A stretch of 7,233 nt of DNA from Candidatus Poribacteria bacterium. GTDB lineage: Bacteria > Poribacteria > DTPJ01 > WJIO01. The notes below the pieces were generated by a model. The model worked only from the letters and a program-made list of their open reading frames with translations. It was not told where the DNA came from and ran no database searches. The position numbers and the translations under genes are program-made. Below, piece by piece: positions 917-7,233 of the stretch; positions within the stretch are counted from its first letter, which is position 1; each line of letters starts with the position of its first letter. Location: assembly GCA_014730235.1 (NCBI GenBank), contig WJIO01000105.1, forward strand, positions 1-7,233, given 5' to 3'.

Positions 917-1071
917 AAAATTCGGCTTTTCCGGGTTTAGTGCGGTTATAATTGAAAATTCTCTCATCTTGTCATTCCTGCTTCAAGCTTTTTGAAAAAG
1001 CTTGAAGCAGGAATGACAGCATAAAGAAGTTTCTAACCTTTACCATACTAAACCCGGAAGAACCGAAAATT
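917..1071. repeat. MITE/REP-like long palindromic element
   Basis: The stretch 921-1067 is one palindrome centred on position 994, with two 73-nt arms and no insertions or deletions needed for pairing. By hand count 56 of 73 positions pair. The inner 23 bp (971-993 with 995-1017) are perfect and the outer 26 bp (921-946 with 1042-1067) have four mismatches. Fourteen of the 17 mismatches are transitions. The ends AAAA (917-920) and TTTT (1070-1073) add a little symmetry. It carries no reading frame. An inner hairpin with terminal inverted repeats, lying between genes, fits a non-autonomous mobile or REP-type element. No clear target-site duplication was found. Only one copy is in this window, so dispersal through the genome is unproven. 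Confidence 0.7.
971..1017. repeat. Perfect 47-bp inner palindrome (23-bp arms, 1-nt centre)
   Basis: The arm starting GTCATTCCTGCTTCAAGC at 971-993 is the exact reverse complement of 995-1017, with G994 at the centre. The transcript of either strand would fold into a very stable hairpin. Neither side is followed by a run of U residues, so it is not a standard intrinsic terminator. It forms the core of the larger element at 917-1071. Confidence 0.9.
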
Positions 1072-1150: not shown

Positions 1151-3610
1151 TTAAACAAGAAATGTGTTTATAGCTTTTTGCAAATCTTCAAATTTAAAAG
1201 GTTTACTTATAACTCCAACAAAACCAAAATCCCTATATTTTGAGACAATCGGATCGCTTGAATAGCCACTAGATACAACGGCTTTAACATCCGGGTCAAT
1301 AATGGAAAGCTCACGTATTGTTTCTTTACCGCTCATTCCTCCTGCAACTGTTAAGTCCAGTATGACAAGATCAAAAGGGTTGCCTGATCTGGCAGCGAAT
1401 TTATACGCAGTTATTGCCTCCTGACCATTAGCTGTTGCCTTTACTTCATATCCCATGCGAGTAATCATTGCAGTTGAAATATCTCTGATAACTTCCTCAT
1501 CGTCCATTATGAGAATTTTTTTAGTTCCTGATTCAAATTCTTTTTCTGGTGATTGTTTTTTGTATTCTGTGCTTTTTTCAACAGCCGGAAGATAAATATT
1601 TAATACAGTACCTTCTCCTAATTTTGAATTAACTTTTATAAATCCATCATGCTTTTTTATTATTGAATAGCAAACGGCAAGTCCCAGCCCACTACCTTTT
1701 TGCTTGGTGCTGAAATATGGATCAAATATATATGGCAGATGCTCTTTTGATATACCCATACCATTATCTTTTATGGATATTTTGATATATTTGCTATCTT
1801 CTGAATCCGGTAAATTCTCCTCTCCTGCTATAATATTTTTGGCATATACCTCAATTTTTCCACCTTCTGGCATGGCCTGTTCCGCATTTAATATAATATT
1901 GCCTATAGCTTGTTGTATTTGACCTATATCAATACTTACTGTTTTCAGGTTATCAGGTAACGATATCTTACAATCCAGTTTAGAGCCATGAAGGGCAAAA
2001 TTGATAGAGTCTTTAATTATATCTGATATATAAACTTCCTTTTTTACGGGTGATCCACCTTTAGCAAATGTCAGAAGTTGATTTGTAAGCCCTTTTGCCC
2101 GGATTGAAGACTTTTCTGCTTCTAATAGTCTGGTTTTTACTTTTTCCGGGTCTTTAAACATACGAGCAAGGGATATATTTCCCATTATACCTGTGAGTAT
2201 ATTATTAAAATCATGGGCTATTCCACCGGCTAATAATCCTATTGATTCTAATTTCTGTGATTTTAAAAGCTCCTCCTCAAGTTTCCTTTGTTCTGTAATA
2301 TCATGAAAAACTATTACAATACCAATAATTTCATTTTGCTTATCATGAATAGGAGCAGCACTGCCGGATATAACAACTTCTTTTCCTGATTTGTCTACCA
2401 ATAAAACATCGCTGGATAAATCATCGGATAAATCCACAGTTTTACCGGATTGCAAAACTCTTTTTACCGGATCTTCGCATTCCTGACCGCTGTTTTCTGT
2501 AATTATATGAAAGATATTACTTATATGTGTACCATAAGCCTGGTTTTCATCATATCCCGTAAGATTTTCTGCAACTTCATTCATCAATAAAATTTTACCC
2601 TGTCTGTCAGTGCTAATAACACCATCAGAAATTGACCTGAGAGTAACCCTGAGACGTTCTTTTTCAGCAGCTAATGAATTTGTTGTTCTTATCATTTCGG
2701 TTATTTCGGTGGAAATAACTATGGCATAAGTAGAATCGTCATCATAAGTTACAGGTGAAAGGCTATTATCAAACCATACTTTAAATCCATTTGGCGCAGT
2801 AACAGAGCCAATATAACGTCTGTTTTCCTTTAATTCGAAAACATCCCTCAGATTTTCACGAAGTTTAACCTGTTCATCTGAAGGTAGATATTCATATATT
2901 GAAGTGTTTACCATATTTTTAGCTTCATGACTAAAAAAACCTCTGTTGATAAATGTGACTTTACCATCTTTATCAATTACCAGTATTCGCTCTGGAGCAT
3001 TTTCTACAAGGGATCGCCACCGGACTTCTGAATACCTGAGTTTTTCTTCCACGCGTTTGCGTTCAGCTATTTCCTGGGTTAGATATGTTGTTCTTTCTTC
3101 AACCAGATTTTCCAGATGCTTTCGATGATTTTCCAGTTCTTTTTCTATTTTCTTATTTTCTGTAATGTCCGATATAAGAACAATATCTCTGATATGCTCT
3201 TTTTTGTCAGAATATACTGCTTTGGCGTATATACGTCCTATACGTTCGTTTCCATCCATATCTGTGAATATTAATTCGTATGGTGGAATATCCTCTCCTG
3301 AGATTCTTTCTGAAAGCATTTTTATTGCTTTTTGTTTACTCGCATCTGGTAAAAAAGGTAATTCCATCAGGTTTTTACCTACAGCATTTTCAGGTTCGTA
3401 ACCGAGCCAATCTTTTAGTCTGCCGTTTAGCTCTACTACATTGCCATATACATCCAGAATTACTATAGCTTCTGGGGAAAAGCTAAAAATCGTTTTATAT
3501 CTTTCTAGTTTTGACTTGGCAATATTTTCCTGATTAAGTTCTTTGATTTGTTGTTTTAGTTGTTCAATTTCTTCTAAAAGCTGTCCTTTGTTTTTATCTG
3601 CATCTCCCAT
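1151..3610 (-). CDS. Soluble hybrid sensor histidine kinase (three PAS domains, HisKA, HATPase, receiver)
   Basis: The protein has 819 residues and no membrane segment or signal peptide, so it should sense in the cytoplasm. A short coiled coil (about 8-40) precedes PAS domains at about 35-155, 192-305 and 318-440; a second coiled linker fills 151-192. The HisKA box GGIAHDFNNIL carries phospho-acceptor His466. The ATPase domain shows the N box (NIILNAEQAM, Asn575), G1 (DNGMGI, Asp615), F box (FDPYFSTK) and G2 (GSGLGLA, 639-645). A C-terminal receiver spans about 697-819, with acidic pair Asp703/Asp704, phospho-acceptor Asp752, Ser780/781 and Lys803. All catalytic residues are intact. No DNA-binding or enzymatic output domain follows, so a separate phosphotransfer protein or regulator is expected, but none is in the window. 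ATG 3610-3608 has AGGAG 6 nt upstream. The gene follows the glycosidase stop by 54 nt without a terminator and is probably cotranscribed with it. The ligand is unknown. Confidence 0.95.
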   Translation of the reverse strand: MGDADKNKGQLLEEIEQLKQQIKELNQENIAKSKLERYKTIFSFSPEAIVILDVYGNVVELNGRLKDWLGYEPENAVGKNLMELPFLPDASKQKAIKMLSERISGEDIPPYELIFTDMDGNERIGRIYAKAVYSDKKEHIRDIVLISDITENKKIEKELENHRKHLENLVEERTTYLTQEIAERKRVEEKLRYSEVRWRSLVENAPERILVIDKDGKVTFINRGFFSHEAKNMVNTSIYEYLPSDEQVKLRENLRDVFELKENRRYIGSVTAPNGFKVWFDNSLSPVTYDDDSTYAIVISTEITEMIRTTNSLAAEKERLRVTLRSISDGVISTDRQGKILLMNEVAENLTGYDENQAYGTHISNIFHIITENSGQECEDPVKRVLQSGKTVDLSDDLSSDVLLVDKSGKEVVISGSAAPIHDKQNEIIGIVIVFHDITEQRKLEEELLKSQKLESIGLLAGGIAHDFNNILTGIMGNISLARMFKDPEKVKTRLLEAEKSSIRAKGLTNQLLTFAKGGSPVKKEVYISDIIKDSINFALHGSKLDCKISLPDNLKTVSIDIGQIQQAIGNIILNAEQAMPEGGKIEVYAKNIIAGEENLPDSEDSKYIKISIKDNGMGISKEHLPYIFDPYFSTKQKGSGLGLAVCYSIIKKHDGFIKVNSKLGEGTVLNIYLPAVEKSTEYKKQSPEKEFESGTKKILIMDDEEVIRDISTAMITRMGYEVKATANGQEAITAYKFAARSGNPFDLVILDLTVAGGMSGKETIRELSIIDPDVKAVVSSGYSSDPIVSKYRDFGFVGVISKPFKFEDLQKAINTFLV

Positions 3611-4774: not shown

Positions 4775-4816
4775 AAAAAAACGGATTAAAAATAAGTCTA
4801 TTTTTAATCCGTTTTT
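4775..4816 (-). terminator. Rho-independent terminator after the sulfatase gene
   Basis: The arms AAAAACGGATTAAAAATA (4777-4794) and its exact complement (4799-4816) form an 18-bp perfect stem with a 4-nt loop. On the minus-strand transcript the stem is followed by seven U residues (4781-4775). It lies 25 nt past the sulfatase stop. The stem is A/T-heavy with one CGG core. T5 at 4812-4816 means it could also act weakly on the plus strand. Confidence 0.88.
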
Positions 4817-4841: not shown

Positions 4842-6227
4842 TCAGGCAAAAGGTTCTTTGTCCATACTCCAATTATCCCCTACAGGTCGGATCTGACCTT
4901 TGCCGCTTACGTCATATTTCAATCCATCTTTGTCAGATTCCACGTATTTATCAAACCAATTCTCCATTTCAGCTTTCATTTCTTTAATTCGGCTGGCTTG
5001 AGATGGATTACTAAACAAATTTTCCCTTTCATCCGGATCATTTTTCAGATCATACAATTCATCAGGCCCTATCGGGTGTCGGTGGACATATTTCCAATCT
5101 CGGGTTCTTATCATTCGGGTTTGACCGTATTCATCGTAGATTATTACGTTTTCTCTGCCTGTACTTTCCTGACCCAATAGTGCCGGTAAGTAGCTCTGTC
5201 CCGGCAGGTTTCTACCCTCCGGTAAAGGAAGATCCAGATAGTCGAGAAGTGTTGGCATAAAGTCATAAGCCGATACCATTGCATCCTGGACATAGCCCTG
5301 AGGAATTCGTGCCGGATGGCTGGCGATGGCCGGAACTTTTATGGAATTGTCATACATATTCAATGGGCTTGTGCCATTACCTTTTCCCCAGAAGCCATGA
5401 TGACCGCAGTTAAAGCCGTTATCGCTGAAGAATAATATCAATGTGTTATCCCTTATACCCATTTCCTCGATTTTATCCATTATTCGACCCACATCCGCAT
5501 CCATGGCTGTAACGGCGGCGAAATAACCTTTGAGCATCTCCCGATTACCATGACAATTCTCAGTTAATCTCCCGGCCCATGGATGTATTGGTTCCTGTGG
5601 GCATGAATTGAATGGACAATCATCATAAGAATCCACGATATCCTGGGGATGACCTGTCCAGGGGCTGTGAGGTGCTGTATAATGAATACTCAGGTAAAAG
5701 GGATTATTGCCTTCAGCGTGATTGTCCAGAAATTCCAGCGCATCATCTGTAATGACGTTGGTAACATATCCCGGCTCATTTACCAGCTTTCCATCCCTTA
5801 CCATGGGCGCGTTATTATATGGTCCGCCGCCTCTTTGGTGGGTGAACCAGTGATGAAAACCATGTTGGACGACCTGGCTGTTCCCCATGTGCCATTTTCC
5901 GCTCATTCCGCATGTCCAGCCGTTTTCCGCCAGAATGTCAGTGTAGCAGCTTTCATCTTTAAGGTAGCTGGCGGCGTCAGGCCCCACATTGCCTTCCTTG
6001 ATCCAATCGTGGACACCATGCTGAGATGGTATCCTTCCGGTCATAAACGTTGCTCTGCTAGGTGAACATACAGGTATTGCCACAAAGAAACTTTCAAACT
6101 TTACACCGGTACTGGCTAATCTGTCCAGGTTTGGGGTTCGTATTTCTGGATTACCATAACAACCGGCTGCCCAGGGACCCTGATCATCAGTTAAGATAAA
6201 TACCACATTGGGTTTTCGGTTTTTCAT
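4842..6227 (-). CDS. Type I (formylglycine-dependent) sulfatase, apparently cytosolic
   Basis: The protein has 461 residues with the alkaline-phosphatase-superfamily sulfatase pattern. NVVFILTDDQ (7-16) supplies metal ligands Asp14/Asp15. PVCSPSRATFMTGR (52-65) is the signature in which Cys54 is converted to formylglycine, with Arg58 beside it. GKWHMG (110-115) carries Lys111/His113. FFSDNG (267-271 region) gives Asp269/Asn270, and FWGKGN (279-284) gives Lys282. The expected reaction is hydrolysis of a sulfate ester; the substrate cannot be read from sequence. The catalytic set is complete and the length is normal for a compact S1-family enzyme. The protein begins directly at the first core strand, so no signal peptide is visible, which is unusual because many carbohydrate sulfatases are exported. 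It needs a formylglycine-generating enzyme or anSME, not present here. The ATG overlaps the kelch stop codon (ATGA), with GGGGGA 5 nt upstream, implying translational coupling. A terminator follows. Confidence 0.94.
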   Translation of the reverse strand: MKNRKPNVVFILTDDQGPWAAGCYGNPEIRTPNLDRLASTGVKFESFFVAIPVCSPSRATFMTGRIPSQHGVHDWIKEGNVGPDAASYLKDESCYTDILAENGWTCGMSGKWHMGNSQVVQHGFHHWFTHQRGGGPYNNAPMVRDGKLVNEPGYVTNVITDDALEFLDNHAEGNNPFYLSIHYTAPHSPWTGHPQDIVDSYDDCPFNSCPQEPIHPWAGRLTENCHGNREMLKGYFAAVTAMDADVGRIMDKIEEMGIRDNTLILFFSDNGFNCGHHGFWGKGNGTSPLNMYDNSIKVPAIASHPARIPQGYVQDAMVSAYDFMPTLLDYLDLPLPEGRNLPGQSYLPALLGQESTGRENVIIYDEYGQTRMIRTRDWKYVHRHPIGPDELYDLKNDPDERENLFSNPSQASRIKEMKAEMENWFDKYVESDKDGLKYDVSGKGQIRPVGDNWSMDKEPFA

Positions 6228-7233
6228 CGAGTTCCCCCGCTTTCCTGTTTTATTTTCGCCCAGATACTTACCATATTACCAAAGGGCGTGACAGGTTCAC
6301 TGCTTATATAACCTGTATCATATTCTTCGACAAAAGCCTCGCCTTTTGGTTCTGCCGCAGGTAGTGTACCTCCTACAGCGTATACTTTCCCATTTACAGC
6401 AGCCGCTGCAAGACCCCATCTGGGTGTAAGCATATCAGCTTTCTTTGTCCATGTATCGGTTTTGGGATCATATTCTTCCACAGAATTGAAGACGTTATTT
6501 TTGGTTATTCCACCAAAGACATATATCTTACCCCCGGCTGCGCTAATCCCAAATGCTGTTCTGGGTGTAGGCATATCAGCTTTCTTTGTCCATGTGTCCG
6601 TAGCAGGATCATATTCTTCTACAGTAGAAAGAATTTCCCCACCGATTTGACCACCTGGACCCGCCTGACCACCAATGGCGTATATTTTACCGTTAATTTC
6701 ACAAACATTCAGGCCTGATCTGGGTGTAGGCATATCCATCTTTCTTTCCCACCTGTCTTTGGCCACATCGTATTCTTCAACATTGGCGAGGGGATTTATG
6801 CCGTCAGTTCCACCGATGGCATATATTTTGCCATCAACTACACTTGAAGCCAGAGCGCCTCTTGCTGTCGGCATGTTGGTCATCAATCTCCATTTGTCAC
6901 CGGCTGGATCATATTCCTCTACGTCTGACAGAAGAAATATCATATCAGCACCGCCTATAACATATATCTTTCCATCGGCTTCACATGAAGTTAAACCGGA
7001 TCTGGCGTTGGGAATTTCTTTTTTATTTGTCCATATATCAGTAGCAGGATCATATTCTTCCACTGCATTGACAGAAGATACCATATCCAGCATTCCACCT
7101 ATAGCGTAAATTTTCCCGCCTGAAGCTGCAACAGTCAGACCGTATCTCTCAGTGGGCATATTTGCCTTTTTAACCCAGGTATCAGGAGCACTAAAACAAA
7201 CCGAATTTAATATTAAAAACCCAATAATCCAGA
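6224..7233 (-). CDS. Secreted kelch-repeat six-bladed beta-propeller protein (5' end outside window)
   Basis: Six kelch repeats are visible, each with a D-x-W start, MPT-R motif, GKIYAIGG-type double glycine and VEEYD end. They span nucleotides 7183-6311 and are enough for a complete six-bladed propeller. The frame stays open above the first Met (7159-7157) to the window edge and encodes a hydrophobic stretch, WIIGFLILNSVCFSA, then PDTWVKKAN, the missing first strand of blade 1. That is the end of a signal peptide with likely cleavage after FSA, so 7159 is not the start; the true start lies outside. Cys in LNSVC has a poor lipobox context. At least 335 residues are present. A 28-residue tail (VTPFGNMVSIWAKIK and neighbours) follows blade 6. 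Propellers of this kind bind proteins or glycans, or in some families act as oxidases or lyases; no catalytic residues are recognised here. The gene is coupled by ATGA to the sulfatase. Confidence 0.92.
   Translation of the reverse strand, partial: WIIGFLILNSVCFSAPDTWVKKANMPTERYGLTVAASGGKIYAIGGMLDMVSSVNAVEEYDPATDIWTNKKEIPNARSGLTSCEADGKIYVIGGADMIFLLSDVEEYDPAGDKWRLMTNMPTARGALASSVVDGKIYAIGGTDGINPLANVEEYDVAKDRWERKMDMPTPRSGLNVCEINGKIYAIGGQAGPGGQIGGEILSTVEEYDPATDTWTKKADMPTPRTAFGISAAGGKIYVFGGITKNNVFNSVEEYDPKTDTWTKKADMLTPRWGLAAAAVNGKVYAVGGTLPAAEPKGEAFVEEYDTGYISSEPVTPFGNMVSIWAKIKQESGGTR
6311..7183 (-). repeat. Six tandem kelch repeats in coding sequence, about 141-nt period
   Basis: In transcription order the repeats are 7183-7040, 7039-6899, 6898-6758, 6757-6599, 6598-6458 and 6457-6311. 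Blades 2, 3 and 5 are exactly 141 nt (47 codons). Blade 4 has a longer Gly-rich loop (159 nt) and blade 6 an extra loop (147 nt). The start of blades 5 and 6 matches at 37 of 39 nucleotides (6598-6560 against 6457-6419), which points to fairly recent duplication or gene conversion. Confidence 0.9.
7165..7233 (-). other. End of a probable signal peptide in the kelch gene
   Basis: Codons upstream of the first Met read W-I-I-G-F-L-I-L-N-S-V-C-F-S-A, then P-D-T-W. This is a hydrophobic core followed by a small-residue site (F-S-A) suited to signal peptidase I. The positively charged n-region and start codon would lie beyond 7233. No ATG, GTG or TTG occurs in frame between 7160 and 7233. Confidence 0.75.

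Follow-up and report, generated by a model that had tools for sequence, protein, structure and literature searches.

A high-copy, ISL3-like MITE family in one genome of Candidatus Poribacteria, with a central hairpin found in unrelated MITE families

The window, the whole 7,233-nt stretch of Candidatus Poribacteria DNA analysed here, contained a long palindrome between two minus-strand genes, one for an AAA/ClpX-like ATPase (1–774) and one for a PAS/histidine-kinase/receiver hybrid (1151–3610). The palindrome consisted of inverted arms at 921–993 and 995–1067 with a single nucleotide (994) between them. When the arms were paired, 56 of 73 positions matched, and the 17 mismatches comprised 14 transitions and no indel. 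The palindrome score was 39, compared with at most 14 in composition shuffles of the window. This agreed with the first-pass annotation, which had described an intergenic, indel-free palindrome symmetric about 994. The perfect core, given there as 23 bp, was found to be 24 bp per arm (970–993 and 995–1018). A location upstream of a promoter, also proposed, was not supported, as promoter-like matches between 700 and 1200 were at the level of shuffles (2 vs. 1.5). No Rfam model matched the window at the gathering score, and a literature search with the letters of the core returned, among the papers listed, chance matches only. Elsewhere in the window, a terminator-like inverted repeat, perfect over 18 bp and with a loop of 4 nt (4777–4816), was located between two minus-strand genes, and repeats of approximately 141 bp were present within a minus-strand gene for a Kelch-like repeat protein (6317–7067).

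A search of the host genome with positions 900–1085 returned dozens of matches, of which those in the same orientation were 82–93% identical. The motif at the ends of the palindrome (GGYTCTTCCGGGTTYAGTGTGGT) had 616 matches in the host genome at up to 2 mismatches, and the reversed pattern, used as a control, had none. In 83 other genomes of the phylum, the same motif had one match in all, with 2 mismatches, in a single genome. The long core gave single 2-mismatch matches in two relatives, which were not copies of the element. The first-pass annotation had named a lone palindrome, with no second copy and nothing similar in relatives, as the outcome that would speak against a mobile family. Copies were in fact numerous in the host, and it was only the relatives that were nearly empty. 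The host assembly is an incomplete (91.6%) draft of 451 contigs from a short-read metagenome, and elements were collected from a 1.53-Mb sample of it, partly picked from contigs with hits. In this sample, 169 elements of 62–225 bp could be paired (chiefly 119–122, 140–142 and 160–165 bp), each bounded by 23-bp ends, and a further 195 ends were left without a partner. The elements were flanked by an 8-bp target-site duplication, which was exact in 59 of 168 cases and had at most one mismatch in 95 of 168 (mean for shuffled partners: 6.3). Duplications of 9 bp and 7 bp were exact in 0 and 15 cases, respectively, and the signal was lost when the boundaries were shifted by one base. The duplicated sequences were 89% A+T, and 145 of 149 placed elements were intergenic by a simple ORF proxy.

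Because it has defined ends, dispersed copies and an exact, AT-rich 8-bp target duplication, the palindrome family is a family of miniature inverted-repeat transposable elements (MITEs), as the first-pass annotation had proposed; pairing the copies defined both the 23-bp ends and the duplication, which it had suggested deriving from an alignment. The palindrome in the window is one copy of this non-autonomous mobile element, which is present in roughly 300 or more copies in the genome. The family is new and confirmed in one genome. It is a known kind of element, but its shared, exchangeable core with two-sided changes is unusual.

The window copy was delimited by means of its homologues, the consensus, and the ends, length class and target duplication of the 169 paired copies. 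It occupies 924–1064 on the plus strand (GGCTTTTCCGGG...CCCGGAAGAACC) and belongs to the 141-bp class, with arm A at the left, a long core and arm C at the right. The mobile unit is thus 141 bp and not 147 bp as described at first; the symmetry was real, but three further bases at either end (921–923 and 1065–1067) pair only through a chance complementarity between the ends of the flanking target duplication. The left copy of this duplication (GAAAATTC) is at 916–923 and the right copy (GAAAATTT), imperfect with one mismatch, at 1065–1072. The left terminal inverted repeat (924–946, plus strand) corresponds to the family end motif, and the right one (1042–1064, minus strand) matched the 18-mer used in the search without mismatch. 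Inward of these lie the subterminal segment of arm A (TTATAATTGAAAATTCTCTCA...CT; 947–969, plus strand), which is common to the oriented copies and approximately 5% divergent, and that of arm C (TAAAGATAAGAAACTTCTTTATGC-like; 1019–1041, minus strand), which differs from arm A by consensus mismatches common to the copies. The long core hairpin (970–1018) has perfect 24-bp arms and a 1-nt loop at 994. Within the element, no ORF reached 80 aa.

A consensus was derived from 18 copies oriented like the window copy, from which the window copy differed at 9 of 141 positions. The consensus itself contained 15 mismatched pairs, and 12 of the 17 mismatches of the window copy were also found in it. Arms A and C are therefore fixed, different sequences, and the proposed decay of a once-perfect palindrome by transitions does not account for most of the mismatches. 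Counted as cells over the 18 oriented copies, changes in the end regions were one-sided in 78 cases and complementary in 6, and those in the middle in 45 and 0. Divergence was approximately 1% in the long core, 5% in the middle and 10–13% at the ends. Maintenance for structure, which the first-pass annotation had considered along with a search for covariation, was accordingly not apparent in the outer and middle arms, where nearly all changes were one-sided. It had some basis in the 24-bp core, albeit in an unexpected form, as the changes there were two-sided and complementary.

The ends of the MITE start with GGTTC.TCCGG and equal GGTTCATCCGGTTAATGAGTACC, the ends of ISL3 relatives found via an ISL3 fragment in the host genome, at 14 of 23 positions, a resemblance and not an identity. 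One of these relatives showed an 8-bp duplication (GTAATTGT), the same length as that of the MITE. The resemblance suggests an ISL3 origin. The MITE may have been mobilised in trans by an ISL3-family transposase which has since been lost or is absent from the assembly. The transposase with matching terminal repeats that the first-pass annotation had suggested looking for was not found: the incomplete (91.6%) assembly contained three ISL3 fragments, all without the MITE's ends. One of them, on contig C391 (locus L079), had been considered as part of an autonomous partner, since a MITE-like end follows it at a distance of approximately 300 bp. The relatives of this transposase terminate at their stop codon in ...CCGGATGAACC, where C391 reads ...CCGGATGAATCC, a different end. 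Because the fragment has its own end, the later MITE-like end belongs to something else, and the candidate was rejected. End pairs 2972 and 3827 bp apart, considered as full-length elements, enclosed ordinary genes and no transposase. The fragment itself (positions 3–182 of L079) was 98% identical to one in a Desulfobacteraceae metagenome-assembled genome (MAG; Tobar14m) and 95% identical to one in a Neomarinimicrobiota MAG (Tobar18m), which indicates either that it was transferred recently between phyla or that the contig is a contaminant.

The MITE was also found within a second palindromic element (ends CCAAGCATAAAATTTATG), which carries it at one fixed site as a MITE inside a MITE. The target duplication of this nesting element is 9 bp long and was exact in 16 of 31 pairs. 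About 49 nested MITE copies were found in the 1.53-Mb sample plus other loci, one example being in L203 from position 5088 or thereabouts. The MITE was missing from one copy of the nesting element, on the minus strand of L183 at offset 7310. This copy had a single AAGACTTC at the site where occupied copies read AAAACTTT-MITE-AAAACTTC, and is a paralogous empty site, in which the 8 bp duplicated elsewhere are present once. Although they stem from one insertion, the 49 nested copies had at least five classes of core and several kinds of right arm.

The core hairpin was common to the ISL3-like MITE and at least two unrelated MITE families. Long cores were found between two ISL3-like arms (35 elements), between two arms of family 3 (9 elements) and in mixed elements, and short cores in ISL3-like elements (50), family 2 (13), family 3 (2) and mixed elements. 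Family 2 has the ends GTAATCGTTAAAAAATG, a length of mostly approximately 124 bp and a 5–6-bp duplication, and carries the same short core hairpins (for example at 9317–9440 of L082). The type of core barely tracked the surrounding body, as 60 of 139 elements shared their core type with the nearest neighbour by body sequence, compared with 49 expected (P = 0.06). A mosaic was observed at 8749–8992 of L080, in which family 2 ends enclose a long core together with an ISL3-like half and one half of the nesting element. The boundaries of the core were identical in unrelated families (TGTCATTCC...GGAATGACA), as would be the case if the core were a mobile palindrome of the REP/REPIN type which a Y1 transposase had inserted into several MITE families. 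We consider this unlikely. The sole Y1 (RAYT) transposase gene of the genome (contig C236) had no such hairpin in the 1.7 kb around it, which also spoke against the REP-like identity put forward in the first-pass annotation, and by inspection the core junctions were fixed and without visible target duplications, and the REP tags GTAG/CGTC were absent.

The changes within the core differed between long and short hairpins. At core positions 5–22 of 69 long-core copies, 10 two-sided complementary changes (8 kinds) were found versus one that was one-sided, with approximately 0.09 two-sided changes expected over all positions under independence. In the interior of 155 short cores, which have 12-bp arms, 65 changes were one-sided, 6 were two-sided and complementary, and 5 were two-sided but of another kind. 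The contrast between long and short cores was pronounced (Fisher P = 3.8e-8, counting cells, which are not independent events), and as copies were compared without outgroups, it describes differences among copies and neither the direction nor the single-step origin of the two-sided changes. Among the loops of short cores, GAAA and TTTC, mutual reverse complements, occurred in a ratio of 19:19 when arm A was placed at the left and of 8:6 in mRNA sense. Some cores were longer through an additional segment in just one of the two arms, left or right, a form that asymmetric intermediates would take.

We hypothesize that, during replication, intrastrand template switching rewrites one arm of the hairpin from the other and inverts the loop, a process that would be more efficient on long arms. 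Template switching of this kind has been described for inverted repeats (PMC8604942, PMC7202029 and PMC8794818). Between inverted repeats, it is described to homogenise arms and invert spacers (PMC8604942), and it makes instantaneous compensatory changes (PMC8794818). Recombination or gene conversion anchored at the common core could in addition swap cores and arms between elements and families. When repeated hairpins in bacteria show compensatory changes, these are often taken as selection for structure, and the REPIN paper takes them as favouring hairpin capacity (PMC3116915). In the same MITE, pairing of the core might be under selection for a role in RNA, as a terminator or in mRNA stability, or for a folded DNA form needed in transposition, with compensatory second mutations being selected. 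Transcripts of either strand indeed folded far better than shuffles (z about −12.8), and the long cores were the least divergent part of the element. One-sided intermediates were, however, nearly absent from long cores (1 vs. 10) and abundant in short cores (65 vs. 6). GAAA and TTTC loops were about equally frequent in both the element frame and mRNA sense, unlike in rRNA hairpins, whose structure is under selection and in which GAAA outnumbers UUUC 99-fold (PMC8794818), and the orientation of the elements to transcription was random, without preference (28:32). With the intermediates missing in long cores and no preference of strand or orientation, selection for folding is the less likely explanation, and we regard it as rather improbable. 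Coupled changes in long-arm cores, uncoupled changes in short-arm cores and loops flipped without strand preference point instead to a mutational process.

Short-read assembly or read correction in an abundant repeat could conceivably have generated the two-sided changes and mixed elements, given that the assembly is a 451-contig draft, several contigs end within elements and correction can erase one-sided singletons, but this is the least probable explanation, as correction favours the consensus and is hardly a source of private two-sided variants, one-sided variants persisted in the equally abundant short cores, and the target duplications of the MITE (8 bp) and the nesting element (9 bp) were intact around many copies.

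Taken together, 924–1064 is very probably an insertion of a high-copy ISL3-like MITE with a self-evolving, exchangeable central hairpin, on which template switching and recombination would act. More tentatively, and with somewhat less than even confidence, we propose that the core is an exchangeable module that template switching keeps perfectly palindromic while it drifts, and that conversion spreads, joining the arms of unrelated families into new elements. If so, the genome would be a natural record, over many copies, of how palindromes become homogenised and of how this depends on arm length. That dependence could be measured in one genome, in which MITE families could be seen exchanging parts via a common hairpin.

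In a non-exhaustive literature search, no prior description of a hairpin common to several MITE families, with two-sided changes and loop flips, was found. The element resembles ISL3-family insertion sequences and their MITEs in its GGTTC.TCCGG ends (14/23 positions) and its 8-bp AT-rich target duplication. It differs from ISL3 elements in having no ORF, no ISL3 gene with its ends in the assembly and an interior that is unrelated as far as seen. Like the bacterial MITEs QMITE2 of Coxiella and Chunjie of Geobacter (PMC10969869), it is short, AT-rich and intergenic, with inverted ends, target duplications, stable stem-loop transcripts and size variants. It differs from these in that the central hairpin is common to families with 8-bp, approximately 5–6-bp and other ends, and in its two-sided changes and loop flips. 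REPINs are likewise extragenic palindromes with compensatory hairpin changes, but they are REP doublets tied to RAYT transposases (PMC3116915), whereas the MITE has transposon ends and target duplications and is not linked to a RAYT. In quasipalindrome template-switch mutation, too, arms are homogenised and spacers inverted; PMC8604942, PMC7202029 and PMC8794818 record this at single loci or in rRNA and gene phylogenies, whereas here it would be read from the many copies that a single mobile element has in one genome.
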